A DNA stretch of 36,789 bases, from assembly GCA_018398765.1 (NCBI GenBank), contig JAHBMJ010000710.1, positions 1 through 36,789 of the forward strand, in the 5' to 3' direction. The DNA comes from Chromera velia. Lineage: Eukaryota > Sar > Chromeraceae. Both the position numbers and the translations under genes were made by a program. How positions within the stretch are numbered: position 1 is the stretch's first letter; each line of letters begins with the position of its first letter. Below the pieces are notes generated by a model. It did not search any database, had not been told where the DNA came from, and saw only the letters and a program-made list of their open reading frames with translations. This document shows, in pieces, positions 2,360 to 28,400 of the stretch.

Positions 2360-4054
2360 ATGTCTTCAAGTGGGGAGCCTGCGGGAGGGGGCGGGGAGGA
2401 GGCCTCGTCTCCCGCTGCGACAGCCTCCGCGTCCCCCCCTGCCAGAGCCACCACCGCCCCCTCGCCAGCGACGCTAAAGAAGTCCACCACCAGCGTCCTC
2501 AGCCCCAACAGCAAGGTATGTGCGAATAGACAGATAGACAGAAACAACCCTGTCGGTCCGTGATAAATGATCGTTGTGGTACTTCGTCTGGTATTTGTTT
2601 CCCCCCTCTCCAGTGTACTTTGTCCGGGGAGGGGCGCGGGAAACCTGAGGGCCCTCCATCTCAACCTGCCCCTCTCTCTCCTCAGCCCACTTATGAGCAC
2701 TCAGGTATGAATATTTATATTTGTGCACCCCTTTCTGTCACACCAACTGAGCCGAGGTGCCATCCGTCTATGTATGTGTCTGTCTGCATGTCTGCAGGGC
2801 TCGATGCAGAAGAGCGTGACGCTGACTTTTGGAAACATCAGCCCTGCCAATTCCTCCCAGGTCTCGGAGCAGCTGGAGCAGTCTCTGCAGACACACAAGG
2901 GAAAGGAGAAGGAGGAGACCGACGGACCCCCAGACACACCAGGAGGAAGGGGGTCGGGCTCTGCAGGGGGCTCTAGGGTGTTTGCGGATGACAGCGGGCG
3001 GCAGCTCTCTCAGGTGAACTGGCCGTTCAGTGCATGCATTTTCTTTCATACAGAATTCTTGAAAGAAAAATGAAAGAAAGAAAAAGCGGGCGGCAGCTCT
3101 CTCAGGTGAACTGGCCGTTCAGGCGTTTGGGGGGAGAGGGCCTTTTTTTCCTGTTGATTAGTGCAACAGAATTGACCTACAGTCGCTCCAAAACTTCGTG
3201 AAACTGGAAAAGTCTTTTCTGCGGAACGGTTTGTTGCACTTTTACTATTTGCTGATTTCTGTTGCTCTTCCACTGTGTTGCACCTCAACAGGGGACAGCT
3301 GTCATCGGCAGAGTAGCCTTCGAGATTCATCCGTGTACCCTTCCCTTTGCAGCTTCTGGATTCGAAGTCCCTTGAATGAAAGAAACACCGGCCGCCTTTT
3401 CTTCCATCTTGCAGGTGAGCAGGCTAGCCAACTCTCTTCGGTTTTCTGAGTGTCTTGAGAGCGCTGGGTCGTCTCAGCCCTCACAGTCGCAGCCAGACGC
3501 GGCAGGTGGGGGGGGAGAGGGAACGAGTACTTCCGCGCAGCAGAACGGAGCGGCAGCGGCAGGAGTTGTCTCTCCATCTGCAGCGTCTCCTTATAGGTCT
3601 CCTGGGGGTGGGGGGGAGACGGCAGGGTCGCCCTATGGAGCAGAGACGGCTCCCACACCTGTCTTGGCAGCACTGGGGGGCGAGGCCGCACCAGGGTCTC
3701 CCTCCTCCGCCAGCGCCGCATCTCCAGCGGCGTCTCCTTTTTTCATGGGGCCCTCTCCCAAAGCCTCGGGGGCAGGTGCAGAGGAGGACGCGGCGTTGAG
3801 GAGTCTGGCTGCTGAGGAAGCAGGTGCAAGGGGCGGAGTGGGGAGTGCCTTGTCGTCGTGTTCTCCTCAGGCAGCAGAGTCGAGACGCGCAACGGCAGAG
3901 AGGTCCATGTCCACACAGTGCGCCTTGGACTTTCGGTGGGTGGGTTGAGTTGAGTGACTTTGTGAGAGTCTGGGGGGATAAGGAGAGGCCTTTGGGGATT
4001 GGAAAAAGAAAAAGAAAGGGATAAATACGGGTGCGTGGAGTGGATCGAGTGGGC

Positions 4055-4089
<35 letters not shown>

Positions 4090-7000
4090 AACGAGATGTT
4101 GTGGGGCTGGGTGTTTGTTTTTGTTCGTCTGACTTTTTCAAGCTGACGTCCTCCTCACATTTTGTGTCGGTAGAATGACGAGAGACTGCATGGCTTTTTT
4201 TGTCAATGAGCTGCCCTCAGGCTGCACGCATGACGTCTATGTTTGAGTGTCTGTGCATGCAGATATACGGCAGGAGGGTCAATAAATCCGGCACTCGGAC
4301 ACGAGGTCTGTCTTGCTTTTGGGTGGTTTTCTCTAGGTCTGGTGCTTCATTCTGGGTCTGCGTGTTTCCTCTTTTGCTGTCAGCTTTCTCTGTGATGTTG
4401 TCTTTCGTTTTCATTCCATGAGATCAATTCATGCTTGACTCTTTCTTACCCTTTGATTCAGGTGCTTCGGTTGACTGCCGGCGCCCCTGCGCGAGAGGGC
4501 ACGTCTGGCTCTGGTGGTGTGCGGAGAGAGAGCGTTCAGAGCACAGAGAACGGAGGGGGGTCCACTGCAGGAGGAGGAGGAAGGATGAACCATGAGAGGG
4601 CATCAGCGTATTGCAAGAAGAGCCCGTTGAATGCCTCGCAGTCCTCATCTATTCTGCATAGGAGACCGAGCATAGGAAGTAGCCGGGGGGGTATGGGAGT
4701 AGGCAGCAGGCAGGGAAGTTTAGAGGGAGGGGGTGAAGGCGGAGGATCTCGGAAGAGAATTCTCCACGGTGGAGCCTCCACACCGAATCTAAGAAAAACC
4801 TCAGGAGGAGAGAGGGGCAATCTGCCCTCTACATCTGGAGGCAGACGCACTCTGGGAGGGGGGAGCAGGTCGGGTGTCGGGATGGGGGGATTGGGGCCTC
4901 TGTCTCAGGCGGAGCCGGGGAGGAGAGGGAGGAGCAGACAGAGGCCGGAGAGACCGGCAACGCCCAGACATCATGTGAGTCGATCAGGCAGTGCGTGGAA
5001 GTGTGCTTGGGGGGATGTCTCTGAATTTGTCCATGTATTTGTGGGTGCCTGGACGCATGAAAGCCTGAGTGCTGCTAGACAGCCCCAATCTTTCTCAGTA
5101 TGCTTGTTGTTCATCTGTGTGTGTATGTGCAGATCATGGCAAGCAGCGAGGTCCCTGCCCTGGACGAGCGCCTGCAGACAGAGACCGTCAGGGGAGAGCT
5201 CCAGAAAGACTACATGCAGTCACTGCCCCCCCCTCCAGTTGGCCCCTTTCCTTTCAGAAACGCACCACAAAACAGACCTAGACCTGCACCGCTAGCACAC
5301 AGCAGCCAGCCTAGAGACCCCCCTCGCCTTTCCTCTCTTCATGCAGGAGGAGGAGGAGGGGGGGGACAGTCTCCGCTCGGAGAGGCTGCCGCCGTTGCTG
5401 CTGCGTACATGCCTAGCGGTGCCAGTGGAGCTGCGGACACAGACAGAGAGAAGGCGCCCCCTTCTGCAGAGAGGTCCCCAACGTCTCGCGATACAGAGAG
5501 AGAGACTCACAGGGCGTCCGAGCTAGCCCCCCTCCAGATGGCTGCAGAGGGGGACAGAGGCACAGAGCGAGACGGCCACACAAAAGCCACAGGGGGCACT
5601 GGAGGGAGAGGGGCCCCCTCGGCCGCCTCCTCCCCTTTGCCCCTTCCTGTACAGCTCCGGTCGCTTCTCACGGGAGGCTCTAGATTCCAGTCAGTCAGTC
5701 AGTCCATGAGGCTTGCTTTAAGTCAGGCTGGTTCAGCGGGGTGAGAAGGAAAGGAAATGAATTCGCGCGAAAGCAAAAGCCCCCATTTGGCTGTTCTTTT
5801 CCCCTGTGATTCTCTTGTGCCGTTTTCACTTCACTTCAGCGGGGCATTTGCTTTCTGGATTTCGTTTACGCATGCGAGTTGTTGTCGAAGTCTTTCGTTT
5901 CTTTCAATTCTTCTGCATGCAGGTGCGCGATTTGCGAAGAAGTCTTCCACGTCGCTCTGGCCAAGTCAGTGGGTGTGCAAAGGAGGAATTCAGAGAATAC
6001 AAAAGGGAGTGAAGCATTTATTTTCATACAGAAATTCAAATCAATAAAACTTCTGTATGAAAATAAATGCTGGCCAAGTCAGTGGGTGTGCAAAGGAGGA
6101 ATTCAGAGAATACAAAAGGGAGTGAAGCATTTATTTTCATACAGAAATTCAAATCAATAAAACTTCTGTATGAAAATAAATGCTGGCCAAGTCAGTGGGT
6201 GTGCAAAGGAGGAATTCAGAGAATACAAAAGGGAGTGAAGCATTTATTTTCATACAGAAATTCAAATCAATAAAACTTCTGTATGAAAATAAATGCTGGC
6301 CAAGTCAGTGGGTGTGCAAAGGAGGGATTCAGAGAATACAAAAGGGAGTGAAGCATTTATTTTCATACAGAAATTCAAATCAATAAAACTTCTGTATGAA
6401 AATAAATGCTGGCCAAGTCAGTGGGTGTGCAAAGGAGGGATTCAGAGAATACAAAAGGGAGTGAAGCATTTATTTTCATACAGAAATTCAAATCAATAAA
6501 ACTTCTGTATGAAAATAAATGCTGGCCAAGTCAGTGGGTGTGCAAAGGAGGGATTCAGAAAATAGAAAAGAGAGTGAAGACTCATGTCAATCAGAGAGAC
6601 ATCCCTGAGAAGGCAAGGGGAGGGACGAGAGGAAGGAATGCAATTGAAGAAAGAGAGAACAAAGTCTGTCGATTATCAATGAATGGCCCGACCTCCCTGC
6701 ATGTGAGAAAAGAAGGGGAGGAGGCGGATCGAAATTAACGGCAGAGAGAGAGAGAGAGAGAGAGTAGGCCAATCTGCAGAAATCCTTGGAAGAAAAAAAG
6801 GGCCGGCCGCTTAATCGGCACCTTCCCCGAGGTTTCCAAAAGGTCGTGAAGACTCCTATCCAAAGAATGTCATCACAAGAAGACACGAAGAGCCACAGGC
6901 AGCAGAGAGACGAAAGAAAAGATTCTTGTTTTTTCTACCTCCATGCAGGTTTGTTGCAAGCGGCCGTGCGGACTTTGCGGAGGTCCACAAGTACCTTGAC

Positions 7001-10000
7001 GATTCCCCCTGGGCCACCGACTTTGCGCAGAGGCAGTTGCCCTCTCAGGCTCTTAGCCATCAAGGCGGCAGGCACGGGCCCGGAAGGCAAAATTCTGCAC
7101 AGTCGCTGTGCTACGGGACCGCCCGGATTCCCCTGGAAAAGCTCTGTGCGGGAATACTGTGCCCCTTTCACATGCTGCACCGACGAAGGTATGTATTCTG
7201 TTGGATACCCACAGGCAGAAAAAAAGTACATTTGTGGACATTTCGCATGACAGGGTCACCATGCAGCGAGAGAGATGCAACACAAAAATACAGGAGGAGG
7301 CCAGATGACCAACAGAAGGATCTAAAGCACCTCTAGCTACATAAAACTTTTCTTATTTGCTCCCGTCCGTGTGCTTCCACCATTTCAATCAAGCAAACAA
7401 CACAAACCTACGTGGGAGGACCGTCAATGCGAACCTCCTGTCGTCATCGCCACGGGAGAAGATTGCTTTGACTTTCATTCTTACAATTTCACACCGATTC
7501 ACACCCGTCTCTTCTTGCGTCCCTCTGTGCACACAGGTACACGTTGCTCGTCCAAGTGAAGCTCGCCCAAGTTGGGAGGATAGCTCGGAACGACTCTGTC
7601 TTCTCGGAGCTGTCACTGCTCGAACAGACGTCAGTCAGTTTGCTGGCTTGCTTTCTTCTTTCTCTTCAATCTCTTTCCCTCTCTTCACTTTTCTGTAGGC
7701 TGGTGAACAACGCACGACTGAAAGAAGGGGTGAGCAGTGTGTTCAAATGAACGAAATGAGCGCCCGCCTGATCCAGAAGGATCAGGATCATATGTTTTTT
7801 CGTTTCTCCAATCTTTCTCACACGTGAGTGAATGCAGTCTCCGGGCCGAGCTGCCGAGCTACGAGAGCCGCATGCAGACCGAGCTAAGACGACGGCATGA
7901 CGGGATTCTGTCTGCAGTGCGGGAAGCACTTGTTGAGGAGGCGCAGTCAGTCTTCGATTGATGGTGTTGTATGTCCCCTCCTCATTCTTCGTTTATTTGT
8001 GTTTGTGTGTCTGTCTGTCTGTTTGTTTATGGGGGAGTCCTCCGCTGTCACCTTTGTTTGGTTTTTTGTCGCTGAGCTATGAATGTCCAAACAAAAATCT
8101 TTTTTTACCATGGGAGAAATGCTTCTTCAATTCGTCCGATGGATAGATCTTTGTTCTTCACCATCTCTGCGTGCGTGCGTCACTGCAGGCACCTGGTGAG
8201 GCACTGGGAAGGGAGGGCCGCGTCCCTTGACGGAGAGATTGACGACACCATCAGGCAACTGCAGAGGAGACAGAGCGAGGAATTGGTACAGGTCAGCCTG
8301 GGAGGGAGAGCATTGGGAAGGGGGGAATCACTTGAGTCGCTGTCTTTTCTTCTCGACGGTTTCATTCTATCCTGTGTCCATGTGTGTGTGCACGCAGCTT
8401 TTGTCAGAAAGAAATAGGGTTTTCCTTTTCCATCCAAGTTTTGCGTCTGGGACAGAAATCGGGATAGGGCAGCGACGTTTGATTCAGCAAGAAATAGACA
8501 ATCTGTCGCAAGCATTCACACCTCTCACATGCATTCCCTCGAAGGATCCCTCCTTCTTTTCCTTCCTATCATGCTTCTCTTTGAATGCAACCACGGAAGG
8601 AAGGAAGGAAGGAAGGAAGGAAGGAGGGAAGGAAGGAAGGAAGGAAGGAAGGAAGGAAGGGAGGAAGGAAGGAAGGAAGGAAGGAAGGAAGGACGAGTGT
8701 GATCCCCCATGCCATCCATGCTGTGTTGTCCTTTCTCTCCTCCACCCATTCCCCTCCCAATCACTGTGTTAGGGAAAGTAAACCAGGCGGACCGTGTAGA
8801 GGACCAAACAAAAATTGTCGACTCATTGAAGCAACCTACCTCAGACTATTTGATCGAATCTGCTTTGTTCTGTTCTCAGGAGGCCGAGAGTCTAGAGGAC
8901 CTCAAACAGGCCCACCTGGCACAGCCCAAGTTCTCTTCCGAGCTAATCGCGATGATCGCCTCCGAGCCACGGATGTACGACACCAGACGATTCAGCGATG
9001 TCGTCAAGGTCAGCCACGGGCCCTGCAGGAAACAGTCCTCTCAAATGCACCAGCTAGGGAGGGCAAAAGGAACACATCCTGCCTACATCCACAAATCAAT
9101 CGCTGAGCCATTTGACTGACTGCCTACTTGCCTGACAGAATGGATATGTATTTGGCTGTCTGTCTGCAGGTGAACGAGATAGGGCGGGAGATCGAGAAGG
9201 AGCAGCGGTGTGCATATCAGACGAAGTTGGAGGCCGCGATGACGAACAAACTTCAGTGGTCAGTCAGGCCGCCCGTCCATCCATCCATCCATCCATGTAG
9301 ATCGCGGAACAATTTTGGTCCTGCATTCCAATCGTTTACATATCTGTGCTCGTCATCTGGCTGTCACGCTTTCTCCTGAATTATCATGGTCAAATTCATT
9401 GGTTTTGAATGATAGGCGCGCTTCTGAAACAGCGATACATCTTTGAAGAAAAACTCGAAAAAGGGATGAAAACACTTTGTGCTTACTACATGCAGTGAAA
9501 TGATGAAGGTCAAATAACCAGATTGAGCAATCAACCGACCTGCCCGTGAATCTGTACTCACTCACTCCCTCCATCGATGCCTTTTCCTTTCTCCCATCCG
9601 TTTTTTCCTTGCTGCTTTCTTTCAGGTTTGTCTCGAAGCAGAACAAGAAACTCTCGGGTCTCGTGGACAAATTGGTGCGTGCGTCAGTCAGTCAGTTGAA
9701 GAGTAGTCTCTCTCGGGCGTTCATTTGCTTTGGGGCACCTCTCTTTGTCCGCTCGCGAGCTGCTCGTCCTTCCATTTTAGTGTCATAGAGAGGTTTATTT
9801 TTTCTCATCTCTTGCGTTCTTCTCTTCTGTGCCTCTCTCCCGTTTTCTCTGTCTCTCTCTCTATCTCTATCCCTGTCCATACTTTTCTCCCTATATGCGT
9901 GTGTAAGTGCGAGTAAGTGAACAAGTGAGTACGTGTGCATGTGTGAATGTGCAGGTCCGACACCGCAAAGAGCTGCTCGGACAGGTCGAGAGGGACAGGG

Positions 10001-12850
10001 AGCTGCTGATAGGGAGGGTCCGCACTGCAATGCTCCGACTCGACAGGGAGATGGCAGAGGAGAGAAGAGTCCTCTCCAGGGGATTCTCTGAGGTGAGTCG
10101 AGTCAGCCTGAGTCAGGGGGTCTGCATGGACAGCCGTGGAGGGAGGGAGGAGGGCAGCTAGGAAGGAGAGAAACTTAAGGGTCTTTGACTGTACATGCAT
10201 GTCTCTTCCTTCTGATAGAAGCTTTTTTGATACGTAATTGATTTCCTGGGTGTTTGTTTTCATCTTCAGAGTCTTCGGCTTCAGTTCTTCCCCCTCGGCC
10301 ATTTGTCCTTTGAGGCACAGCCTTTGTCTGCATGTATCTTTTTTTGCTTCAGTCGATACGCAGGCGGCTCTTTTGTGTGTCAATCTTATGCAACGCGTAA
10401 GTGTTTTTTGTTGATGTCCTTTCTGCAGCACGCTCACAAGCTCCCTGTCTTGCTGGAACGAGTTCCGAAGAGACTAACGAAGGAGAAAGGAGTGCCCCTC
10501 CGAGAAAGGGGGGTGACGATGGGCACATTTCTCCGGAGTGCTCCCTCCTCCTTTAGGTCGGTTGGTTAGGATGTGGGGTGAACGGGGGGCAGACCAGACC
10601 TCCTGCTGCGTTGGCGTCTCTCTCACACACAGACATACACACATCACCAGCTAGAAAGATGAGAGCTGAAAATCGGGCAAGCAATGAGAACGGTTGCGTG
10701 TGTGAGAGCGCAACACAAACAGTGAAAAATTTGAGTGCATGAATGAATGAATGGATGAATGAATGAATGACTGAATGAATGAATGAATGAGTGTAGACGG
10801 GGAGAAGGGGATGCCGGATGATGTGCGGTTCCTGATGTATGCAGATTCGGTCCTTTCGACTTGTCGGGAGCAGATCCAGATTTGGAGGAGGAGAGGGGGA
10901 TCTGCGCCTGTCTCGGCCATCTGATTGCGGCAATCTTCGGACAGGGGGAGAAGGGGATCAGGACCCGACTGGCAGGGGCGTGTGGGGAGTGCCTCGCGTG
11001 CTTCACTCTGAACAGAATTGTGATGGGGGTCCGTCCGTTCTTTTCTTTTTTCGATATGTTTGTTTGCATTTCCAATCTTCACTTTTGAGAGAGCGTATGT
11101 GCATTGTTGCATTGCACGTTCCGCGGTTAGGGGTGGACGTGTACGCGGCTGCCTCGACAAGAAAGCTGCTTGAAGAGCGAAGCCAGGTTTTTCATTCTGC
11201 GTGAAAGAGGTTAAGCGCTCGTTGCCCCTTGTGTCTGTTGTCTCCTCGGTGTCGATTCCCTAGCTTCCTCTGCATCTTTGTGGAGTGCATGAATCTTCCT
11301 GGATGAAGTTGCATGTCTATTAAGTCCGTTTTGTTTTTCATCACGCCATTCAGGGGGACACGTAAACGAAAAGAAAAACCACTCGTTTCCTTTCCCCTGC
11401 TCCAACTCCTTGCAGGAACCGATCGCACAGGCCCTCCCACCTCCCAGCAATTCTATGCAACACCACCCAGACCTCAACTCAGCTTTGGCGCAGGTCCGCG
11501 CAGATTCTTTCAAAAATTCTTGGATCATGAGAGAATTTCAGATTTTCAGTGCGCCGGTGTAGAGGCAAAACACTTGGAAAGATGAGTGTGTGTCGGTACC
11601 AGTCTGGCCAGTCTTCTAGAACGCTTGCGCATTCAGGCCTGATCCTCACGAAGGACACTGACACCCTTTCTCCACATCCTCATTCTACTTGAAACCCTGT
11701 CTCTCCTGCCCCACTCTTTCTCTCCTCTCTGACTGACCTTTCACATGTGCCTTGACTTCCTTGCAGGGGGGTGCGAGTCGAGGCCGGAGTCAGGCAGGAC
11801 GGCTATCGAGGGCAGCCACCTCCTGTGGAAGTCTGAGGGCTGGAGGGGGGGGAGGGGGGTCTCTGCATGGAGGGACCAGCAGTGCCTGGGGGAGGCCCCA
11901 GCCGTCTGTTGCTCTGAGCCTCTCTCACCTGTCTCAGGGCAGCCACACTCAGACAGGGGAACTCCTGGCGGCACACAGCGGCAAGGGACACAGGGAACTG
12001 ATGCTCAGGTGGGTCCTTCCTGGGGTCTTTTGTTTTTGTGCATTCCCTCACGTCACTGTTCGCATACTTCCAGATGCAGTGATGAAGCAAAACAACATGA
12101 AAAAGATAAAAGGAAGAAAGATGGAAAGATAGAAGCGAAAGTCCTTCCTTCCACAATGAATTGGCCCCCCGTCTCCTCTTTCCCTAGCTTTGTCCTTTCT
12201 ATTCTTTCTTGCTAGATCCTGGATGTCAGAATGTACTTTGTTTGACTCTTTCTCATTCGATTTCGTTTCAGGTCCGGCGAGACGGCATTTGGAAGGTGGG
12301 GCAAATGCCTCGGGGGGATCCTCCGGTCTGGCGTTCATCAATTCGGACAACGCGGGGGGGAGGAATGGGGGGGGAGGGGAGGGGGATATTCCGCCATCAA
12401 CCCTATGGAGCTGTGACTGGTCGGTTGGCCGTTGATTGAAACTTCAAATTCTTGTCGCCCTCTATCCCCCTTTTCCTCTCTGGTATTCTTCTGATTGTAT
12501 TGCTTTGGCTGGTGCATATCGTGTTTCTTTGCATACATAGGAAAGAGTTGATCGAGGAGTGACTGTCAGGTGGTGAGCTGAAGTGAATATCAGAAGAATG
12601 CAGGTGACAGACGAGGCACCCATGCATTCTTTCTCTTTCCGTTTTTGTCTTTTTCTCTTGTTTCGTCTTCATCTCCTCCTTTTCGATTTCCTCCTCCGTT
12701 AATTCAGGTGCCGCCGAGACACGACCCCCCAGACCGCCTGCATCGTCCCTCTAGACAACGACGTGCCTCATCAAGTGCTGAGGGCATTCGATAGATTCTC
12801 TCTTGATACTGTCAGTCTGTCTTTCTTTCTGTCTATCTGTCTTTCTTTCT

Positions 12851-12884
<34 letters not shown>

Positions 12885-12969
12885 CTGTCTGGGTGTCTGT
12901 CTGTCTGTCTGTCTTTCTTTCTGTCTATCTGTCTGTCTGGGTGTCTGTCTGTCTGTCTGTCTGTCAGGG

Positions 12970-13002
<33 letters not shown>

Positions 13003-13013
13003 GTCTGTCTGGG

Positions 13014-13050
<37 letters not shown>

Positions 13051-14393: not shown

Positions 14394-14651
14394 CTGTAAC
14401 GGATTTGCCAGATGAGCAAAGGAATCGGAGTGGTCTTGAGCACTTCCTTGGAGACCTGTCGCTCCTGAATCTGGTTGAAAATGAAAACTATAAAATAAGA
14501 AGGAACAAAGTGGCTACAATCTTGCCGAGTGGGGCTGAAAGCAGCAATTATAGCGTGAGAGCTGCGACTGCAAGATTCAAAACTTTATTCATATTTAGAG
14601 AGTTGAGTATCAACTCTATGAACTAAATTCATTCATTCGATAGTAGTAGAA
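14394..14651. other. Intergenic, 3' of the coiled-coil gene
   Basis: No gene seen. Short AT-richer sequence lies between the stop codon at 14391-14393 and the LTR element. It probably holds the 3' UTR and polyadenylation site of the upstream gene; I cannot place these. Confidence 0.5.
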
Positions 14652-15133
14652 TGATGATGCACCGACCGACGCCAAGCGAGCAGTCGGCGGGGCAGAAAGA
14701 ATCGAACAATAGCAAGGCGCGGAGAATGAATGAATGCACGGGGGCCAAGGCATGCCCTGCATGAATATACGCCGCCCGAGTGCATCAAGGTGTACGCGCG
14801 CGTGTATAAAGTCAGCGGGGGCCACGTCAAGCTCTGTACTGGAATTCACATGAATTAATTCGACGTGCATGCACGCTTGAAGTGCGTATATCTGAATACG
14901 AACAATGTTGTGAAAGGAAGGAGGAAGAAGGTACGTATGAAGTGACTAGAAGTGATAGTCTTCTTCATATGTAGGAAACAACCTGACTGGTAGGTAGCAG
15001 TTGTGCGTGTCGTAGCTGGACATCGCAGTAAATGTGAATGCCAGTGATTTGCATCATGATAGACCAAGTCATATCTGTCTGACCGTCTATCTATCTCTGT
15101 ATAGCCCTATATAGAGATCAGTGTTTTTCATCA
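14652..15133 (+). repeat. 5' LTR (482 bp)
   Basis: TG...CA long terminal repeat. It contains a TATAAA at 14805-14810, preceded by CG-rich sequence and followed by a possible transcription start region. A second AT motif (ctatatagagatc) lies near its 3' end. In most places where the two LTRs differ, this copy holds G/C and the right copy A/T. Confidence 0.93.
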
Positions 15134-16532: not shown

Positions 16533-17269
16533 CAACAGGGGGAGGGATGAAATCAATATAACCCACAATGCAGACAGGACAAGAAAGAAAGGAAGAGAAG
16601 GGAGAGAGACAGAGAGGAGAGAGATGGCGGACACTGAAGTGGGAATGACGGAGGGTTTGAAAGAAGAGACCAATCCAGAGGGCGTTAAGCAAGCTGACCG
16701 ACAGAAAAAAGGGCAGAAAAAGCTGACAGGGTGAGAGTTCAAGGACTATCCTCTCAATTAGTTTGAGAGACTGACGAGAGTGAGCTGTGTCTCTGCTGCA
16801 GATTGAGAGAGTCGTGCCTTTCAGTCGAGCCATGTCCTTTTGGTTTCTTTCTGATCTCTCTTCATCTCTTTTCTCTTTGTATCAACCACGAGTCAGGAGC
16901 ATGCAGGTTCGTCCGAAAAAAAATTGTGGACCTTATACCCGCATGCAGTATTATGCAGTCATCAGACAGTCAAGCAGGATAATCTTCGAAATTTCATGCA
17001 TGATGACCGCACAGGTTGAGTAAAAACCTGAGTCTAGGACCTATTTGCAAGCAATCTCGATGTTAGAATGAGTGTCCGACCTAAGAAGAAAAGAGCGTGT
17101 CAAAACAAAAGCCTAAGCACTCCATATGTCTTGATTCAACAAACTCACAAGGTTGTTCAAATTGGTTTAAGGTCTGTTCTGCTCTGTGTAATCTACATAA
17201 AAGAAAAAAAGAGAAAGGAATGCAAAGTCATAATTCTATTTACTCCGCGAAAAAAGAAAGGAATGCATT

Positions 17270-17751
17270 TGATGATGCACCGACCGACGCCAAGCGAGCA
17301 GACAGCGGGGCAGAAAGAATTGAACAATAACAAGGCACGGAAAATGAATGAATGCACGGGGGCCAAGGCATGCCTTGTATGAATATACGCCGCTCAAGTG
17401 CATCAAGGTATACGCGTGCATATATAAAGTCAGCGGGAGCCACGTCAAGCTCTGTACTGGAATTCACATGAATTAATTCGACGTGTATGCACGCCTGAAG
17501 TGCGTATATCTGAATATGAACAATGTTGTGAAAGGAAGGAGGAAGAAGATACGTATGAAGTGACTAGAAGCAACAGTCTTCTTCATATGTAGGAAACAAC
17601 CTGACTGGTAGGTAGCAGTTGTACGTATTGTAGCTGGACATCGCAGTAAATGTGAATGCCAGTGATTTGCATCATAATAGACCAAGTCATATCTGTCTGA
17701 CCGTCTATCTATCTGTGTATAGCCCTATATAGAGATCAGTATTTTTCATCA
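17270..17751 (+). repeat. 3' LTR (482 bp)
   Basis: Same length and ends as the 5' LTR, about 94% identical by eye count. At roughly 23 of 28 differing sites it carries A or T against G or C in the left copy. Nearly all differences (about 26) are transitions. Confidence 0.93.
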
Positions 17752-17756
17752 TAGAA

Positions 17757-19769
17757 TCGATACATTTTCTGTGTTTAGTTCTCTCTTTATGCAATCAGAA
17801 AAGCAATTTTAAAAATAAAATCTAGAATATAAAATATCTAAATTTTATGAGTGATCAATGAATTAGTCTATAGGCTTTGAGTTTACTGTAATCTGGCTAA
17901 TGTAATCCCGGAACATAAATTCTGATCCTAATCTTAATAAACGGTAGAGCAAATTTGTAATAAAAGTTTTAAAACTAAATTTAAATTAATGTTTAGATTC
18001 ATATATCATAATAAAACTATATTAAAATATATTAAAATTTAGCAATTAATTTTGATCATTATAAGTAAACGTATGTAATTGGACATTTCTTCCTTTTTAC
18101 CTCTTTTATAGCTAGATACATGCAATTCTACCATATATAAGTTACTGTAGATGCAAGTTTGCGGCCCCACTTTCAATTAAATTACATGCAGGACATTTAT
18201 AATTAAATTAATAGCAAATTTCGTTACTTTGCATGCAAATTGACCGTCACCAAATCAGCAAAAGTAAACACAGCCAGATCCGACTTTTCTGGACAAACTG
18301 TGCATACACAAAGATACAACGGCACCCCTTCAGTTTTTACTTGGCTTAATTCTCAGACTCGACGTCTTGTGTATCAGGCTTTCTGGCCTCTTCTCTCCGT
18401 TAGCCACTACTTGGGAGGGAAAGAGAAACATTTTCTCACACTGAAACCAGGGAATGTAAGTGACCCAACTCTGAGGAATGGCCACGTCCGATGGCTTGTC
18501 TTTATCAACATCAGTTGTTGCCATACAAAACTGCCTACACACCATAAAAGCTCGTTCAAAAACGGCATGATAAAGACCGAATGGATCACATCGAATTGGA
18601 GTGAAAATGCAGAAAAACAGACAGTAAACCGTCAGACAGATCGGAATCGAATTGATAGAAGGTAGAAAACCATCCGCACAATAAAAGGATGCTCCATCAA
18701 CACAACTTCTACCCATTAGTCCCCCTTCTTGAAGACCGTATGTCATATTCTTTGCTTCTTACCTTCATTTGGACGACGATGAGGGAATCATGCTGAACGG
18801 ATGCACAAATGATCGACCTTGAATGCATGAGAACCGGAAACTCTAGCCCCTAAGGTTGATACCTTTTTCTTTGAAAACAGGCGGCTCGAATATCAAGCAG
18901 TTCCATCTTAATTTTGCTTTGCGTCGTTCAGCCTTTTTCTTCTGTATAACTCTTTCTTTGCGCTGACTAGTTCCTGCGATACTACTTTGATTGAGAAAAA
19001 AAGGGCACCTTTTTGAGCCTCAAATTCTGCTCCATATGTGTACATTCGATCGTTCACGTCATAATGTTTGTAGAGGCCGTCTTTTTTGCATGCCAGGGTG
19101 CAAGACTTCTTCAGAAGTCAGCATGGAGTGCTTGGGCAGCCTGAAGTAGCTTGTAAACACAAAAACAGAAGGTTTTATCATCACAGAGTTATCTGTGAAA
19201 CAGATAGAATGCCAAGCTCGGCGTTGGCAAAAGAAAAAAAATAAAAGATCTTCCAAAGCCCCTTACTTTTTTTCCTTTTTTTTTCCTTTTTCTGTGAAAC
19301 AAGCTAGCAAACAAGTGTTGTTTGAGTCTTACATAAGTGTTGTTTACGTGTTGCATAACTGTTGCTGAGTGTTGTTCAGGATTAAAAAGTAAAATTAAAA
19401 ACTAGTAAAAAAAAAGTCTTCCTCAATCATTTATCTTTTTATTTTTATTTTTTTCTTTAGCCGACGCCTAAACGTTAAGTTAAGCCCTAGGTTACTAGGC
19501 TTCAGGCTAGCACTAGGCCTAGCGTTGAGTACTATATCAGAGTAGCATTAAGCTAACTTTGAATAATAGTAGCCTAATATTTAAGCACGATCTACTTTAA
19601 CCCCAAATCTTTTTGACTAGCTTTCAAACTAGCTTTGAAAAGAGAAAAATAGTTTGAATATATGATTTGAATATGAAAAAAAAGTCGAAATCTGGAAATA
19701 TGCTAGAATTTCCAATAGAAATCAATAGAAATTTGAAAAAAATTCTAAGGTCTAATTTTTATGATATTG
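17757..19769. other. AT-rich, gene-poor stretch
   Basis: Composition falls sharply to AT-rich, most strongly at 17760-18240. Pyrimidine runs occur near 19265-19300 and tgttg-type words follow at 19315-19380. One TTG-initiated 141-codon ORF at 18240-18665 has no ATG start, no recognisable motif and no splice support. I call no gene. It lies between two mobile elements and may be decayed transposon DNA. Confidence 0.6.
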
Positions 19770-19777
19770 CCATCAGA

Positions 19778-20928
19778 TAGTGACCATGTTTGATTTGATT
19801 TGATTTGATTTGAGGTAGGGCTTAAGCTCAAATGAAATATTCAGTCAGGGAGGACCTAGTGTTTAAAGACCTATCAAATACGATCAAATATTTGATCAAT
19901 ATGACTTTCAACCTCAAATATGAAGGTCCCGAAAAAACTTTTGCAAGTATCGATCCGTCACGCATGCTGGTTCAAATGAAAAAACCTAAATCTTGAAAGA
20001 CAGGAGAAGCGGTCAGAGGGGGCGGGGGGGACGAAGCAGCCTGACAGTGCTGACAGTGTTGGAGGGGGGGCCGCTCCTGCAGGGCCCGGCGGGAGGACCA
20101 ATTTGAAACCAAAGGAGGCGGCCGCAGACGCAAATGCTGAGAAGGCTGGGGGGAAACTTCCCCCTCCTGAGAAAGTCATCACTCCGGGTGAGGAAGGCTA
20201 CCGACCTCTTTATATTCACCTCCAACACAAAAGGCTTGTTGTCGGCCCTGGCGCAGCACAGAAAGTAGCCGAACTTACCAACTCTGGATGCTTAGCTGCC
20301 CAGAAACAGGACGGTTCCAACACCAACAGCAATAGCAAACGTGTGCGCGGTTCTCCGTCTCACCCTGTTGTCATCTCTCCGCAACCGAATAGAAGCCCAG
20401 GAGCACCCACTTCTGGAAAGCCGAAAAGCCAGAGAAAAAGCTCTCGGCAGCTCCCACCACCGATCGATTCGATTTACATTGAAGAAAGTGATCATGAAGA
20501 AGAGGAAAAGGAAGTGCCATAAAGCTGAGTGATTGTCACCTCAATTTTGGTACGTACTCTAACTTTATCGTATCAACAAAAAGTCATATGCAATTTTAAA
20601 TCTATCAATTTTATGTTCTTAATCTCTATTAGTACTAGAGTGAGTCTCAGTGACTAGTGTATATACACTGCCACACAGGCATATTTTTTTTACGGAACTG
20701 ATAAGTTATAATTTTATATATATTTTTTTAAATTTTTGAAACACACATCAGAAATGTTCTGATAACTATTGTCATGAGAAAAATGATCAGAGTGACAGTA
20801 AGTCAGTGACTCAGTGAGGAACCCTAAGAGGTTAACCTCAAATCTTACCTTAAATATCAAATATTTGAGGTTGAAGCTCAAATCAAATCAAATCAAATCA
20901 ATTATAATCAAATCAAACATGGTCACTA
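19778..20928. mobile_element. hAT-like DNA transposon, non-autonomous, 1,151 bp
   Basis: Terminal inverted repeats begin TAGTGACCATGTTTGATTTG. The left is 19778-19814 (37 nt); the right is 20877-20928 (52 nt, with a 15-nt insertion relative to the left). Both end in repeated TTTGA words typical of subterminal transposase sites. The element is flanked by an exact 8-bp duplication, ccatcaga, at 19770-19777 and 20929-20936. An 8-bp target duplication plus ends fitting YARNG are the hallmarks of the hAT superfamily. The interior holds only a short ORF without a recognisable hAT transposase or dimerisation region, so it depends on a transposase elsewhere. Confidence 0.88.
19980..20522 (+). CDS. 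Unknown ORF carried inside the hAT-like element
   Basis: An open frame runs from just after a stop at 19977 to a stop at 20520-20522, about 180 codons without an early ATG. It is therefore a partial coding sequence or a spliced exon. It starts Gly/Ala-rich, has one ordered-looking patch (YRPLYIHLQHKRLVVGPG), then a Ser/Pro/Lys-rich basic segment and an acidic end (EESDHEEEEKE). It is far more GC-rich than the AT-rich ends around it, which suggests captured host coding sequence rather than a transposase. It could also be the remnant of a fast-evolving transposon protein. Function unknown. Confidence 0.4.
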   Translation, partial: KNLNLERQEKRSEGAGGTKQPDSADSVGGGAAPAGPGGRTNLKPKEAAADANAEKAGGKLPPPEKVITPGEEGYRPLYIHLQHKRLVVGPGAAQKVAELTNSGCLAAQKQDGSNTNSNSKRVRGSPSHPVVISPQPNRSPGAPTSGKPKSQRKSSRQLPPPIDSIYIEESDHEEEEKEVP

Positions 20929-20936
20929 CCATCAGA

Positions 20937-22268
20937 TTTCTATTAAATTTTTTATAACGTATTTCTATAACCTTTTATAATTTGTATAGAACAATGAACA
21001 TCAATAAAACATCACAAAACCAGCTCTAAATTCAAAGAGTTTACTGTCCCAGCCACTGTGATCGACTACTGCTAGGACTACTGACTCAGATTTTGCTTGT
21101 ACTGCGGAAACATCGGTACCCTCTGAATCTCCCCACTCCGGCCCCCTACACTAAAGCTTCTCCCTAAGATCTAGCCTACAACAGAATATGCGTTCTCCGC
21201 TTCCTCGTTCGTCATCTGTTGTATCCCTTTTTTGACTTTTTACAGACGGAATACAAGCTCGACGGATACCTTTGAGGTAAAAAAAACAGGCTTGGGCGGC
21301 TCTGTCCCCCAGTTGTTCCATAATTGCGAAGCACTTTTTTCATTCTCCCTTCAGCTCTATTAATCATTCGGTCTTCGGCTGGCCCTTGTCCTGCAAGGAA
21401 CGGAAAATTCAGAAATGAGCGCACTCTCCAAGGCGACTGCGACGGCCACCCTCTTCGCAAATGTCAGAACTCTTTTGGGAGGATACATATACATACATAC
21501 ATGCATACATATATATACACACTTCTCCAACAAGACCTAGAAAAAGGGAAGGAAGGAAAGAAAAGAAAGACAAACAACAAGCAAGCAAGCAAGCAAGAAA
21601 GAAAGAAAGAAATGAAAGAGAGAAAGAAGGAACGAAGGAAAGAAGGAAAGACGGAAAGAAGTGAAGAAGAGAAAAAGGGAAAAGGGGGGAAGAATGAAGG
21701 GAAGCAGCAAAAAAAGAGAAGGAAATAAGAAAAGAAAGAGAAGGAAGAGAAAAGGACGAAAAAAAAGGCAGGAAGGAAGTAAGGAAGAAAAAAGAACGCT
21801 GTAAGCTTTGAAAACATATCATGAAATCGATTCAAAACGACACAGGCACCCAGGAAAAAGGATCTGAAACGGGGGCTTTCAAAAGATGAAAATGAAAAGC
21901 AGAACAGAGAAGAGAGGCACTGACGTCAAGTTTTGGGAACTCCGCTGTTTCCCTTCCCGCAAATGTGTCTGGCTGCACAACGCATGGAGGAGAGCTAGGA
22001 AGGTCAGCAGGTAGGGGTCATCCGAGGGAGGAAAACAATGGCACACAAGATTCATAGTGACATTCCAAGACGACAAAATCGGCAATCCACCGATGGACGC
22101 AAAAAGGACGATGAAGTTCGGGCTCAAAAGTGCCCCGACTGCTAGTCTCTCCTTCACGTGCCCATGTGTGTACGTGTCTCACATGCAAGAGAAGAAAAGA
22201 GAAGAGAAGCTGCAGAAGGGAAAGAATGAAAGAAATCGTTGACCATGTAGACAAACGGGATCGGAGAA
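20937..22268. other. Gene-poor region with long purine tract
   Basis: 20937-21200 is AT-rich. A near-continuous A/G tract runs from about 21540 to 21800 (gaaag and ggaag words), which yields spurious Lys/Glu/Arg ORFs on plus and Phe/Ser/Leu ORFs on minus. An acceptor-like ccttgcag on the minus strand near 21393 could belong to an unseen exon, but nothing downstream of it is convincing. The last few hundred bases should hold the 3' UTR of cutA. Confidence 0.5.
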
Positions 22269-23532
22269 TCAGGTTCCCCTGACCACTTCATTCTTCACCC
22301 ATCCGAGGTATCCCTCAAATCCGTCGACAACAGGCAGGAAGATCACCTGCATGACGTCGTTTTGAGGGATCACTCTTTTGACTGGCGATTGGAAGATCAC
22401 GGTGCATGCACAAGCAGAGGAACCGGGCAGGTAGACGAAATGCACCTTGAATCACAGGCACGTCAATACCAGAGAGAAGATACCCGAAATAAAAAGAGAA
22501 AGAACAGAATCACAGACACGTCCATACCAGAGAGAAGATACCCGAAATAAAAAGAGAAAGAACAGAATCACAGGCACGTCCATACCAGAGAGAAGATACC
22601 CGAAATAAAAAGAGAAAGAAAAGAATCACAGGCACGTCCATACCAGAGAGAAGATACCCGAAATAAAAAGAGAAAGAAACCGAAGGACGCCCGCACCTCT
22701 GCGCAATCGTATGGGTGCATCTTCGTGACCGCCTTCGTGACCTCTGCAGCGACTGCGGCCCTGGTCTTGATGATCATCAGGGCCTCTTCGTCGTTCTGCA
22801 AGAGAAGGGAAGAAAGGAGGGGGGGGAGAGAACAAAAAGGTCTTGATGATCATCAGGGCCTCTTCGTCGTTCTGCAAGAGAAGGGAAGAAAGGAGGGGGG
22901 GGAGAGAACAAGAAGGTCTTGATGATCATCAGGGCCTCTTCGTCGTTCTGCAACGAGGGAAGAAAGAAGGGGGGGGAGAGAACAAAAGGCATCCCATCCC
23001 AGGAAGAAAGAAGGGGGGGGAGAGAACAAAAGGCATCCCATCCCAGGAAGAAAGGAGGGGGGGGAGAGAACAAAAGGCATCCCATCCCAGGAAGAAAGAA
23101 GGGGGGGGAGAGAACAAAAGGCATCCCATCCCAGGAAGAACGTAAACTGCAGAAACCGCCTGAACGAAGCTGCTCACCTCCATCTTGCCCTCCCACGTGT
23201 ACCTGCACACAGACAGAGACAGTAAAGAGAGAGGCATGAGGCGACATGGTGAGCAATGTTGTTTTGCCACAGGCTTCCTGACCGCGTCTCCTAAATCATC
23301 GAGCGACTGACAGTGAGATCACCTTGGGGACCACATTGACGCACGCCACCATCTTTGCGTCCAGAAGATTCTTTGCGATGCTCTTCGCAACCTCGACGTT
23401 GGGAGCTGCAGAGATGGAAACCAGGGACTCAAAAGTGCGCGTCCGTCCTGAACGATCTGCGGGTGAATGCATGAATCTTGTAGGAGACGGGGTGCACTTA
23501 CTCGTCACGTACGCAACTCGAATGTCAGTCAT
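22269..23532 (-). CDS. cutA: CutA-family divalent-cation tolerance protein
   Basis: Five exons on the minus strand: 23532-23502, 23405-23312, 23202-23178, 22795-22697 and 22346-22269 (TGA). All are joined by GT-AG introns in correct phase, giving 108 residues, the usual CutA length. Family landmarks appear in order: an N-terminal strand (IRVAYVTTPN), the helix EVAKSIAKNLLDAKMVACVN, the VVPKVISLYTWEGKM hairpin, the NDEEALMIIKT strand, the second helix, then KMHPYDCAEV and a closing LPVVDG..YLGWV. CutA proteins form stable trimers; copper or divalent-metal tolerance was proposed for bacteria, and organellar or secretory forms exist in plants and animals, but the molecular role is unsettled. An in-frame upstream ATG at 23685-23683 would add a 51-residue hydrophobic leader (MRLPLSVVGTCLSLRFLGVK...), possibly a targeting presequence. 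Introns 3 and 4 are packed with tandem repeats, including copies of exon 4. Confidence 0.93.
22449..22680. repeat. Four tandem copies of a 57-58 bp unit in cutA intron 4
   Basis: Copies of aatcacaggcacgtcc followed by ataccagagagaagataccc and an aaataaaaagagaaag block start near 22450, 22507, 22566 and 22624. Differences are few. No exon sequence is included. Confidence 0.92.
22764..22965 (-). repeat. Three copies of the start of cutA exon 4 with its acceptor
   Basis: In plus coordinates, gtcttgatgatcatcagggc starts at 22764, 22840 and 22916, a period of 76 bp. The copy at 22764 is the real start of exon 4 on the minus strand (encoding NDEEALMIIKT). The two upstream copies keep the first 33 or so exon bases, and each is preceded by an acceptor (ttgcag or ttgcag-like). 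Use of a decoy would run into Phe/Ser/Pro sequence and alter the conserved core. Confidence 0.92.
22955..23140. repeat. 44-bp G-run minisatellite in cutA intron 3
   Basis: ggcatcccatcccaggaaga recurs at 22988, 23032, 23076 and 23120 (period 44), each followed by seven or eight G and agagaacaaaa. The G-run block is shared with the neighbouring 76-bp units, so the two arrays have a common building block. On the minus strand these become long C runs in the intron. Confidence 0.93.
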
Positions 23533-23685
23533 GGTGTTCGGAGGGACGGCACCAGGAAAGGTGCTGAAGTGTGTCACAAGACCGACAGGCTGTGTACAGA
23601 TGAAAGAGAAGCTATCAACGGAACTCTTGACACCAAGAAAACGAAGAGAAAGACACGTCCCCACTACACTCAAAGGAAGTCGCAT

Positions 23686-24404
23686 TAGGAGACTGATCGA
23701 CACACTGAAGGAGTCAACTGTCTCTCGGTCTCTCTCGTTCTCTGAGGAACATCGTCTGGAACAAAGCCACGAAAGAACTAGAAGCGCAGTCTAGTTCAAG
23801 CTCAGCGAAGGATGCAGTGGGGATCCTTTCATCGATCAGACAGGCTCATGCTAACTTGAGTCGATTGACGCCGAAAGTCCGAGACGGATTCGATCCCCCC
23901 AAAATTGGAGACGGCAGCATGCATGCATCTGCATGCGCATGCGGCGAGCGATCGAGCCCTGCCGAGCCGAATTTGCCGAGCCGAATTTCAATTGAGGCAT
24001 GCCGTGGCCATGCGCATGCATGCATGCAAATTTACGAACTTCCGCGCCGGGGGCCACGGCTACCAGTGTCAGGCTCAAAAACCGTTTGAATTAAGACATG
24101 ATCTGTCAGACATGTCAGACTGAGCCTGAAAGGCTTCTACGGCACGACAGGGACAAACACGTACTCAGTGGACAACAGGGGACATGCCCGATCATTGACT
24201 GCATGATCAACACACATGCAAACGGTCCTTGCAAGATCGGACTCTGTGCCCAGTCTGTCGATCAAAAAGGTCATTGAAAACAGAAGAACTCTGCAGCACA
24301 GTGTAAACCTGAGAGCAAACAACACCTTTTGCTCAGTCAAGTTTTGTTCTTGGCTGTTTGTTGCTGATCTTCTCTCACTGTCTTGACTTTCTTTCCCGAA
24401 CGAG
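23686..24404. promoter_or_regulatory. Divergent promoter with a GCATGC cluster
   Basis: This is the only stretch between cutA (leftward) and the subtilisin-like gene (rightward). GCATGC occurs at 23917, 23921, 23931, 23937, 23997, 24014, 24018 and 24022, eight sites in about 111 bp, several as the palindrome TGCATGCA. A direct repeat gccgagccgaattt sits between the two groups (about 23960-23990). GCATGC is a known ApiAP2 target word in apicomplexans; that it acts so here is inference. No TATA element is obvious. Confidence 0.55.
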
Positions 24405-25399
24405 ATGAAGTTTTGTACAGCCCTTCTTTTGTTTCCTTTCTTGGCTCTGTGCCAGGACATTTCTCCCTCTAACGACATCAGCATTGCAACAGAGGCTCTG
24501 TGCCAGGACATTTCTCCCTCTAATGACATCAGCATTGCAACAGAGGATGACACCCCTCTGGTCGAGGACGACGTTCAGATGGCAGACGCAGGAGTGAACC
24601 CCAACAGCGTGCCCCCTCCCGTGAACGTCATCGTGGAATGGAGCGAACAGTCGTCGGTGGCAGCAGCACGGCGCCGCCACATGGCTGCAGTGGACGGTGT
24701 TATGCTGCCAGATGAGTATGTCCAGAAGTTGAAGGACAAGACAGTGGAGGGACGGACACGCCACAGATCTTGGAGAGACATCTGGGCAGAACGGGGTGTT
24801 GGCAGAGGAGGAGCAGGAGGAGGTCCTCCCCAAGGCGCCACGATTCGGGACTACATCACCAGATTCTTCAGGGGAAGATCCGAAGGTCTGATGGAGGTGG
24901 ATGACGTGCAGGGACTCATGGAGGCTGCCCGGACGAGGAACGCAACGCTCAGAAGCCTCAGACGTCTCAACGGTGAGTGCCTTGTGTCTTTGTCTTGTCA
25001 CCCTGCATGTACGTGTGTGTTGCTTGTGCTGGTGTTGCCTCCGGGACAGACCTGTGACTTAACTCATTCCGTCTGCCGCTCCTGCGTGAACGTTTCTGCG
25101 TGCCGAGGGTGGCCACGTACAGATGTGCTGATGCGGATCATGAAAGGCGAGGAGACAAAGAGACGGGCGAAATGAAATACTGTGCGAAAAGCAAAAACAA
25201 GCAATGGCACTGTCTGTTGTGCAGGGAGGGCTGTTTCTGGATTGAAAGAGTCATGCTGCAAGACCTGTGCTGTCAAAGGATACCTTCAAAGCCTGCTGGC
25301 CGGACAAGTTTTCCCATCAGCTCCCATCCCGAATGTAGTGTTTCCGTGCGGTGGATGTTGAGGAACACAAATGATCAAGAGGAGTGGAAGTGAATGGCA

Positions 25400-25437
<38 letters not shown>

Positions 25438-28400
25438 CACACACACACACGCACGCACGCACGCACGCACGCACGCACATACGCGCACATAACCATTCTG
25501 GTGTGTGCAGGTCTGAACGTGGACGTTGTTGAGGCTTCGTCTGTGACTGAGGCGAGGGAGTTGGTGGACCATTTGAACGAGAAGCCTGAGGTGACCTTCG
25601 CAGAGATGGCCCTTTTGTGGTCTCTCGACAGACCGGCAGACACCCCAGCCAGAGAGATGCCTTGTGGGGCCTCTGCCTCTTCCTCTCCTGCTGAGCAGTT
25701 GATGAAAGGAATTCGACGTCTGGGCTCTGTGCCTCCCTCCTTGTCTGTGGAGGCAGAAGAAGAGGAGGGGAAGGAGAGAGAGCTGCAGAGCCGCTTTGTG
25801 CCTAATGACCCTTTCTTGGGCTACCTGTGGGGCATCGATCAGTCCTCCGACACTACAGACGTGAATGGTCTGTCTGTTTTCTGCATGCATGGGGGGGGGG
25901 CGGTTGTGCGTTTGCCCCTAGAGGGGGAGAGGGGCGATGGGGGTTCACATGAGTGAGGGTCTGTGTTTTGCTGTCTGTGTTTTTTTGTATCTTTGGCTCG
26001 GTCTGTGGAGAGAAGGGGAAAGAAAAGGGATTCTTTCCTCGCTTGCCTATTTTCTTCATACAGTTTCCCTCTTCGTACCTACTTTCCATAATATTGTTTT
26101 TCTGGGTCCCTTTTCCTGCCGTCATTTCTTGGCTGTGACCTCTTTTTTTCGGAATTCTACAGCCAGGCTGGCTTCCTTTGGGCGACCTTTGCATACCAGG
26201 ACTTGGAAGTCCTTTGTGCATGTCTTTTTTGTTCGTTCGTTCGCCGTTGTATCTCTCTGCCCTCCTCCCTCCTTCTTTCTACCTCTCTATTGCAGCTCCT
26301 GAGGCATGGGCTGTCCACAGTCCCTGCATTCATTTTTCATCCATTCATACATGCATACATGCATGAAAATGCATACAAAAAATTCTGTATGAAAATGCAT
26401 GCAGCTCCTGAGGCATGGCCTGTCCACAGTCCCGAGGTGTCTCGGAGTTTTGACCCCCCCGTGATTGCGGTGGTAGACACAGGAGTTGATTACGGAAACC
26501 CAGATATGAAGGTTGGCCTGGCCTTTTTGTCCGCCCTCTTGCACTCTCTGCCCGTCCTGACATACGCACTTTCATCGTACATGTTTTGGACCCTTGTTCT
26601 CAGGGGAAGGGGCCACGAATGTGCAGAAAATGGATCGGTACAGGTGTTGTTTTCCGCTTCTTCTCGTTGTTTGGCTCTGCAGAGTAGAAGAGCCAAGAGG
26701 GAAAAGTGCGTGGAAAGAGTCTCGCCCCTGCCTCACACCCCCTCTCCCTCTTTCTGTTCCCGTGCAGCCCCAATTGGACAGATACAGAGAGAGGGACGGG
26801 GTGTTCTTCGTTCATGAGCCGAAGTGGGGGGTCCGCCTGAAGAGATCCCACACGGCCACCAGCAGATCGATCTTTCACTTCTTTGGCAATAGGTCAGCTC
26901 CTTCTCGATCCTTCTTTTTCTGCAGAAACGCGGGGATCTGGTAGAGATATGCATCAAGCGTCCTTTGTCCTTGAGAAGAGACTGTTCATTCATTTCTGTT
27001 GGCGTGCCGACCTCTTCTTGCAATCTTTATTTGATTCGTACGCTTTCCAAACAGCATACAGACTTTCTCTCAAGCATCCGCACATGCAATTTTACAATAA
27101 ATGCAGCACGATCGATGAGGGTGCCGTCCGCGTCTCCCCAAAGGAAGAGCTGAAAGACGAGCAAGGGCCTCTCGAGTCCCTCAAATCCATGACGGGAACC
27201 TGCACAACCCCTCAGAGAAAGCACTGGACCAGCGCTTGTTGCATGGGAAAAGATGTCCTCAAAGAAGAAGGGGTCTGGGGTCGGCACAGAGAGTTGGAAT
27301 GGGGGGGTGAGCGGTCCAGAGAGGTTAGGGAAACCTGTATGGGCGGGCTGCAGACAGACTGCGCAGAGCTCCACTTGAAAGTGTGGGGTGAGATGGAAGA
27401 CGAGGGCTTCTTCCAGTCAGGCTTCCAATCAGGCGAGACAGAGAACAAAGAAGAAAAAGGTCGTGCCAAAATCTCTGAAGACCCGCAGCAGAAAGCGAGG
27501 GGTCAAAAGTGCGCACCTCCCAAAGAGAAATCCGAGAGTCGCGGCATTTCGTTTGTTTCTTCTGCTGCTGAGGGTGTACAGTCTGATGCCGAATACCCCG
27601 TCTCCGTCCCCAAAACTCCTCCCGCCCCTCCGGCGCCGCTTCCCGCCGCTCCCTCTGTGTCCCTCCGCTGGTGTCTCCAGAGCGCCTCCCAGAAGGGATT
27701 GCAGAGCGAGGAAGAGTTGGAGGGGGCCTGCGGGGGAATTTGGGACTACATGACGTCCGAAGAAGAGAGAGAGGGGAGACTTCTGCTGGTGAGGTACGTT
27801 GAGTACCTCAAGAAGATGAGAGTGAGGGAGGAAAAGTTGAAGGATGCCACCCCCCTGACACGGTGGATTGTGCAGGTGTCGGGCCCAAACCGGTGGCCCT
27901 TCTACCTCGCCATCTTCGTGCTGACCCTGGTCAGCATGGGCTGGTCTTTCTCCTGTTCTTTCGCGGCCTTTTCTTTCGATGACGGCAGGGTTGGAAGGGT
28001 GCTGCAGAGAGTGAGAACAGCGTGGGGATCTGTTGTGTTGTCCCTCTCTCTCGCGCCTCGGACTGCGCCATCCCTGTCTGTCTGTCTCTGTACTGCAGCA
28101 CTGCTGCTATCGTGTGTCTCTGCCGGACCGCCAACCCTCTCAGGGGAGTTTTCTGGCGCGACGGCTGCGTCGCTTGCTGCCTCCTTGGCCGTCTCAGGAT
28201 TGGCCAAAGGAGTTGCAAAGAGGGTCAAGAAGACCTTTCTTGACTTTGACTGTGAAGAGACGACCGAGACAGAGACAAAGAAGGCAGAAAGAAAGAGGGC
28301 CCAATCCGTTCCTGCCGGGATTGGAGGACATGGACGCGCTGCCTCCCCTTCCCCGTCTCTGACACAGGTGCATGGTGACCCTGTATGTTCCCACGGAGTG

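Follow-up and report, generated by a model that had tools for sequence, protein, structure and literature searches.

In miniature inverted-repeat transposable elements (MITEs) and foldback elements, the target duplication has a fixed, short length of about 2-11 bp. A target duplication of 49 bp is reportedly found with SLACS. Introners are flanked by target duplications of 3-9 bp according to the available text of one study (PMC9860276), in the main text of which the word "Chromera" does not occur. The Amoebophrya introners are described, in the part of the source at hand, with direct repeats of 3-5 nt and inverted repeats of 8-20 nt (PMC7789003). For SINE1, a short interspersed nuclear element (SINE) of Entamoeba, the accessible text reports empty sites that hold one target copy, and the same logic is applied here (PMC3118788). 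In the potato RdRp gene, an intron was gained by a tandem duplication over an intron-exon boundary, as given in the portion available (PMC4974935). The published assembly of Chromera velia has 193.66 Mb in 5,953 scaffolds, and about 30 Mb of the genome is transposable elements, as stated in the text available (PMC4501334). The window analyzed here is a stretch of 36,789 nucleotides of Chromera velia, contig JAHBMJ010000710.1, which is contig C709 in the numbering of the genome that was searched (177.8 Mb, 4,040 contigs). This genome gave 58 matches to the chlorophyll a/b-binding family; its light-harvesting proteins matched related chains in PDB, and none of the matches listed was nearly identical. 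Four duplicated places were recovered in the window through tandem-repeat and spaced-repeat scans. At all four (4/4), a splice junction lies inside the repeat unit, based on frame-consistent gene models judged by eye. Three of them, loci 1, 2, and 4, probably belong to a single non-autonomous insertion element that is dispersed in the genome and makes a long target duplication, and it is probably the insertions copying a junction that survive. No description of this insert family was found in the literature searched, which left most subscription papers and all supplements outside its scope.

Paralogs were found by searching the genome with the DNA of the window and of selected loci. Four insertions have a natural empty site, with one target copy and without the insert, and their duplications are 38, 34, 33, and 41 bp. 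These sites demonstrate the insertion of a family member with a target duplication of 33-41 bp. At locus 1, target copy 1 (2993-3030, plus strand) is 38 bp, of which the exon takes up 21 nt and the intron 17 nt, with the donor CTCTCAG|GTGAAC and the exon end at 3013. It is followed by an insert of 54 bp (3031-3084), which starts with TGCATGCATTTTCTTTCATACAGAATTC and has a weak foldback (DNA z -1.3), and by target copy 2 (3085-3122, plus strand, 38 bp), which holds a decoy donor within the intron. The copies are 100% identical. The next exon of this gene is marked by CTTGCAG|GTGAGC. The insert is missing from the paralogs C2291 and C175; the alignments to its left and right flanks overlap there by 38 and 29 bp, so a single target copy is present. 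At the same target, L083 (C175:42820-42990) has 14 other bases; TGCATGCA is among them and looks like the end of an element. These extra bases may have been left by another insertion or by an excision.

Locus 4 is at an acceptor. Target copy 1 (26291-26324, plus strand, 34 bp) has the TGCAG acceptor and a truncated exon and is a decoy. The insert (26325-26399, 75 bp, DNA z -1.6) starts with TGCATTCATTTTTC and ends with TTCTGTATGAAAATGCA. Target copy 2 (26400-26433, plus strand, 34 bp) has the TGCAG acceptor and then the complete subtilase-like exon from 26405. The copies are 97% identical, and the acceptor, TGCAG|CTCCTGAG, precedes a subtilase-like VIAVVDTGVD motif (PF00082, E 0.027, under its curated cut-off). 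The paralog C3887 has a single 34-bp target and lacks the insert. An open reading frame (ORF) of the subtilase-like gene also carries a tandem duplication of 51 bp (24443-24546, 98%), which adds 17 residues in frame.

The other two empty sites belong to L054, a gene that appears protein-kinase-like by eye. Its paralog C320 is without both inserts and has single targets of 33 bp (site 1) and 41 bp (site 2). The kinase-like peptide of C320 had no match in PDB. The insert at site 2 appears to be inside an exon because C320 reads through as coding (...SYKVQQTAGTIGYADPLYIK). The L054 gene copy has an in-frame stop elsewhere in the gene, where C320 is open.

Locus 2 is an array (5957-6579, plus strand, period 113) in which six flank copies of roughly 55 bp alternate with five hairpin inserts of 59 bp. 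The exon ends at 5964, the donor in the flank copies is GCCAA|GTCAGT, and the next exon is marked by CATGCAG|GTTTGTTGC. The first insert (6013-6071) is a near-perfect hairpin with arms that are 96% complementary (DNA z -10.0). The second to fifth inserts (6126-6184, 6239-6297, 6352-6410, and 6465-6523) were identified by the repeat scan and as arm-pattern matches on C709.

The arms of the family are TTTTCATACAGAATTC and GAATTCTGTATGAAAA, and related inserts are dispersed over unrelated loci of the genome. A two-arm pattern had 21 + 21 matches on the two strands, against 0 + 0 for the reversed control. A 14-mer arm had 321 + 321 matches against 1 + 0. A 17-mer arm with up to 2 mismatches had 1,024 + 1,038 = 2,062 matches against 7 + 11 = 18. 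The spacers are thus related across loci, and the reading in the preliminary description is not refuted on this point. Terminal inverted repeats are present at the level of the family, as seen in the 44 + 44 matches of a relaxed two-arm pattern and in a median fold z of -4.6 (55 inserts, mononucleotide shuffles). The median insert length is 59 bp for the motif clusters in the fetched loci. Average G+C content is 54% in the duplicated segments, 49% in the flanks, and 24% in the inserts. Both the inner part of the insert and the length of the duplication vary among loci. A 25-mer arm had 62 exact matches, 24 of which are in one array on C3687 (spacing 119); shorter arrays are on C3776 (spacing 97), C710, and C2063 (both spacing 73). 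The last two, L034 (C710) and L044 (C2063), represent one locus with a 73-bp array on two contigs, the later copies of which differ, and C710 ends within the array.

By eye, arm TTTTCATACAG is similar to a 3' splice site, and CTGTATGA, its complement, to a 5' splice site. The commonest arm has all three frames open on one strand (…IYFHTEF, FIFIQNS, LFSYRIL); therefore, listed ORFs often extend straight across an insert. The inserts at L052:1510-1798 and L012:1484-1549 consist of several units of 16-17 nt around TTTTCATACAGAATTC, with nine motif matches in L052, which suggests inner slippage or repeated copying. An unbiased scan for spaced duplications over 197,025 bases identified 162 pairs, of which 77 had the motif and 9 had a hairpin without the motif. 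The eight of these that were listed lie either in a satellite (L038) or in the array of L044, which is a diverged family member. Since the motif was the criterion for choosing the loci scanned, the scan may overlook other families. An apparent second repeat that accompanied the inserts was rejected as AG/GT simple sequence.

The preliminary description had put forward an introner-like or template-switch process. In the template-switch form, as considered here, replication or repair would make the palindrome and the duplication together, without a mobile family. The varying length of the duplications and the varying inner part of the inserts would agree with such a process, as would the repeated units of 16-17 nt in L012 and L052. 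It is not supported: members of a single sequence family are found at unrelated loci, and insertion with target duplication is documented by four empty sites. The same arms at unrelated loci, with their many genome-wide matches, need a common donor. In addition, arms that belong to the same element resemble each other little more than arms taken from different elements do (42 of 2,000 permutations were as high). De novo template switching is therefore very unlikely. Another part of that description, the repeated landing of a short related insert with duplication of the flanking sequence and an excess of junctions, is supported.

The architecture of the family was explored in 92 motif clusters from 66 loci, where a duplication was called if direct copies scored more than 1.35 times the best of 60 shuffles. 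Overlapping locus copies, the window array loci L055-L059, identical copies, duplications above 66 bp, and repeated units were dropped before these and the later counts (92, 66, and 53). A total of 76/92 clusters lie between direct copies, against 21/384 random points in the 3-kb loci under the same test. In a list-order sample (L061-L080), 20 loci taken in sequence from the one-arm search with loci already sampled skipped, the duplication passed in 14/20. Around the clusters without a significant duplication, a search for far-flung ones gave as best matches only adjacent weak ones or none. A set of 66 unique duplications was collected at a score cut-off of 1.3. Their length is variable, 58/66 span 25-54 bp, and the commonest class is 50-54 bp. 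Nine are 100% identical and 16 are below 90%; since copy identity has this range, the insertions seem to be of different ages. The duplication period modulo 3 was 0, 1, or 2 in 19, 19, and 28 cases, respectively; there is no excess of 0, so no frame selection is seen.

The assembly of Chromera velia was made from short reads and contains much low-complexity sequence, as its description notes in the part available (PMC4501334), and local duplications could have been invented in that way. Substitutions and indels distinguish the target copies (median identity 0.94), and the same architecture occurs with different flanks at dozens of loci. An assembly artefact is accordingly the least probable explanation, and hardly a credible one.

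Splice junctions in the duplicated segments were scored through splice-like motifs and coding edges, rather than annotated junctions, against random segments of the same loci, with a codon model built from 1,787 seed codons. The splice weight matrices were higher in duplicated segments than in random ones (acceptor p 3e-4, donor p 7e-7), and a combined score of signal plus coding edge reached p 2.6e-8 over 66 sites. With one site for each of 53 loci and copy 1 kept, the edge score still gave p 4e-6. Because copy 1 was kept, the element cannot contribute letters to this score. At the level of single loci, 20/53 had p<=0.1. AGGT/ACCT was found in 29/66 duplications against 11.9 expected (about 2.4-fold), and TGCAG/CTGCA in 26/66 against 11.3 expected (about 2.3-fold); neither count was reached in 2,000 simulations. 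In the list-order duplications, TGCAG was in 8/16 against 3.2 expected. Junction signals are over-represented in the duplicated pieces, in agreement with the enrichment over a random null that had been anticipated, and many sites have none that is detectable.

Several exons next to the inserts can be assigned by homology. Copy 1 is interrupted by the insert, and copy 2 opens the exon, at L002 (calcium-binding EGF, Pfam EGF_CA, E 1.2e-11), L029 (MTHFR; MTHFR_C E 1.6e-16 and PDB 6fcx 3.4e-14), L040 (serine-palmitoyltransferase-like; PDB 7u7h 1.5e-6 and a partial NCBIfam match at 2.9e-7, far under its curated cut-off), and L028 (histidyl-tRNA-synthetase-like; a partial NCBIfam HisRS match at 1.7e-4, far under its curated cut-off). 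Among ten exon pieces, only L002 and L029 were above the Pfam cut-offs, the other eight having sub-cut-off matches or none. Ten ORFs beside sites had no Pfam match. NCBIfam gave nothing in two of four pieces, the other two being L040 and L028. Further cases, L030 (ABC-type VYLMDEVTTDLD), L027 (an EF-hand-like loop at a donor), L009, and L026, are judged by eye to be presumably at junctions. At L042, there is what we take, by eye, to be an insertion at both ends of one exon.

The preliminary description had also suggested that the process is introner-like and seeds alternative or new introns. In such a reading, inserts would create introns from AG|GT of the target plus the element end, where TGCA and a target G would give TGCAG. 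An acceptor-like TGCAG is in fact formed at the insert/target border of L054 site 2. The excess of duplications with AGGT is in line with it, and the potato case, in the text at hand, offers a precedent for a new intron from a duplication over an intron-exon boundary (PMC4974935). However, the junction is already in the empty paralog at 3/4 sites (locus 1, locus 4, and L054 site 1) and is thus older than the insert there. At L054 site 2, copy 1 has a weak donor only and no in-frame product was seen by eye. A continuity test for exonic insertions gave no clear set of them. Seeding of new introns by the inserts is therefore improbable.

It is also possible, though unlikely, that the insertion machinery has a preference of its own for splice junctions, based on TGCAG or AGGT-like sequence or on co-transcriptional structure, so that the enrichment would come from targeting and not from survival. 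TGCA is exactly at the native target start in 6/104 ends against 0.9 expected, and AGGT is near native ends in 10/104 against 3.1. At its strictest, the edge score is reached by 19% of sites and by 4% of the random segments, a difference that by our estimate is beyond what exonic loss easily gives. However, most native ends have neither TGCA nor AGGT, the base composition of the ends shows no strong motif, and L054 site 2 sits inside an exon.

A dispersed element whose junction-copying insertions survive appears to account best for these data, and several observations weigh against it. Only 14/53 loci reach p<=0.05 in the edge score, and many insertions can therefore not be assigned to a junction with confidence. 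AGGT was not enriched in the list-order duplications (2/16 against 2.5 expected). There are 16/92 clusters without a significant duplication, including 6/20 list-order loci. The hairpins at loci 1 and 4 are weak. Searches for empty sites with L042, L010, and L027 gave none. No transposase or autonomous partner turned up, and no search aimed at them was made.

The proposed element would be mostly 45-75 bp, AT-rich, and often palindromic, with the two family arms and frequently with TGCA at its ends. On insertion, it would duplicate some 25-55 bp of target, probably through two nicks on opposite strands 25-55 bp apart and subsequent fill-in. Where the target has an acceptor, copy 2 would keep the complete exon and copy 1 would become a truncated decoy; with a donor, the order would be reversed. 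The gene would survive because the exon edge remains whole in one copy, while the other is confined to the intron. Insertions inside exons of working genes would mostly be lost, which agrees with L054 site 2: of the four insertions it alone is exonic, and its gene copy has a stop. Junctions would be enriched by such selection, perhaps together with a preference for TGCAG or AGGT-like targets. Slippage or recombination between target copies may then build arrays such as the one at locus 2. To our knowledge, no transposon class fits such long target duplications on so small an insert.

Locus 3 (22763-22990, minus strand) is a plain 76-bp tandem repeat, present three times over the acceptor TTGCAG|AACGACGAAGAG of CutA (PF03091, E 1.5e-5), and is outside the insert family. 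Of the four loci, only this one has plain abutting copies; loci 1, 2, and 4 have a related family insert of 54-75 bp between the target copies. The locus 3 spacer does not fold in a test against shuffles and the shared insert is absent, and the four loci are therefore two different things. Of the preliminary description, which had duplications straddling splice borders at four loci and a fold-back with related arms between copies at three of them, the four duplications with their junctions remain, as do the related inserts at three; locus 3 does not belong with the others, and the hairpin is strong only at locus 2. Two further tandem arrays adjoin locus 3 (22449-22678, 58 bp x4, and 22958-23140, 44 bp x4.2), so the CutA gene is rich in plain tandem repeats. 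A 300-bp repeat (30404-30703 and 31388-31687, 100% identical, spacing 984) has an N at the seam, 31387, and is possibly an assembly duplication. An Rfam scan of the window had no match at gathering scores.

Target copying of 30-50 bp may make an insertion at an exon edge tolerated and add a second splice site to the gene. These insertions could serve as a repeatable natural experiment in splice-site competition, with duplicated junctions maybe becoming alternative or new introns and with the empty paralogs as controls. A more tentative proposal, which is less likely to hold than the dispersed element itself, is a class of ultra-short mobile DNA with nicks about 25-55 bp apart that is steered to junctions, each insertion giving a second working donor or acceptor. 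If this were true, the genome, with its more than 2,000 arm copies, would hold a permanent reservoir of alternative splice sites and of introns yet to form.

The inserts can be compared with several known systems. They resemble MITEs and foldback elements in being short and non-autonomous, with inverted arms, high copy number, and in some cases inner tandem units, but their target duplications are variable and mostly 25-54 bp instead of short and fixed. They share with introners, as far as the sources at hand describe these, short non-coding dispersed inserts, inverted repeats, flanking direct repeats, an association with splice sites, and many copies. One such trait is the dispersion of similar sequences in genes, for which homology gives the gene context at L002, L029, L028, and L040. 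Introners, however, have target duplications of 3-9 bp or 3-5 nt, against 33-41 bp at the four empty sites, and they make new introns, whereas here the junction is older than the insert at three of the four (PMC9860276; PMC7789003). Non-long-terminal-repeat retrotransposons with widely spaced nicks, such as SLACS/CRE, and SINEs are alike in their variable and sometimes long target duplications and single-copy empty sites, according to the available text (PMC3118788; PMC12278014). In contrast to those, the inserts here are palindromic, 45-75 bp, and without an obvious tail by eye. The potato RdRp case, as far as its accessible text goes, is also a duplication over an intron-exon boundary that gives spare splice sites, but it is a single plain tandem event, whereas the copies here are separated by a mobile insert and the event recurs genome-wide (PMC4974935). 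Locus 3 is closer to that case than loci 1, 2, and 4 are.

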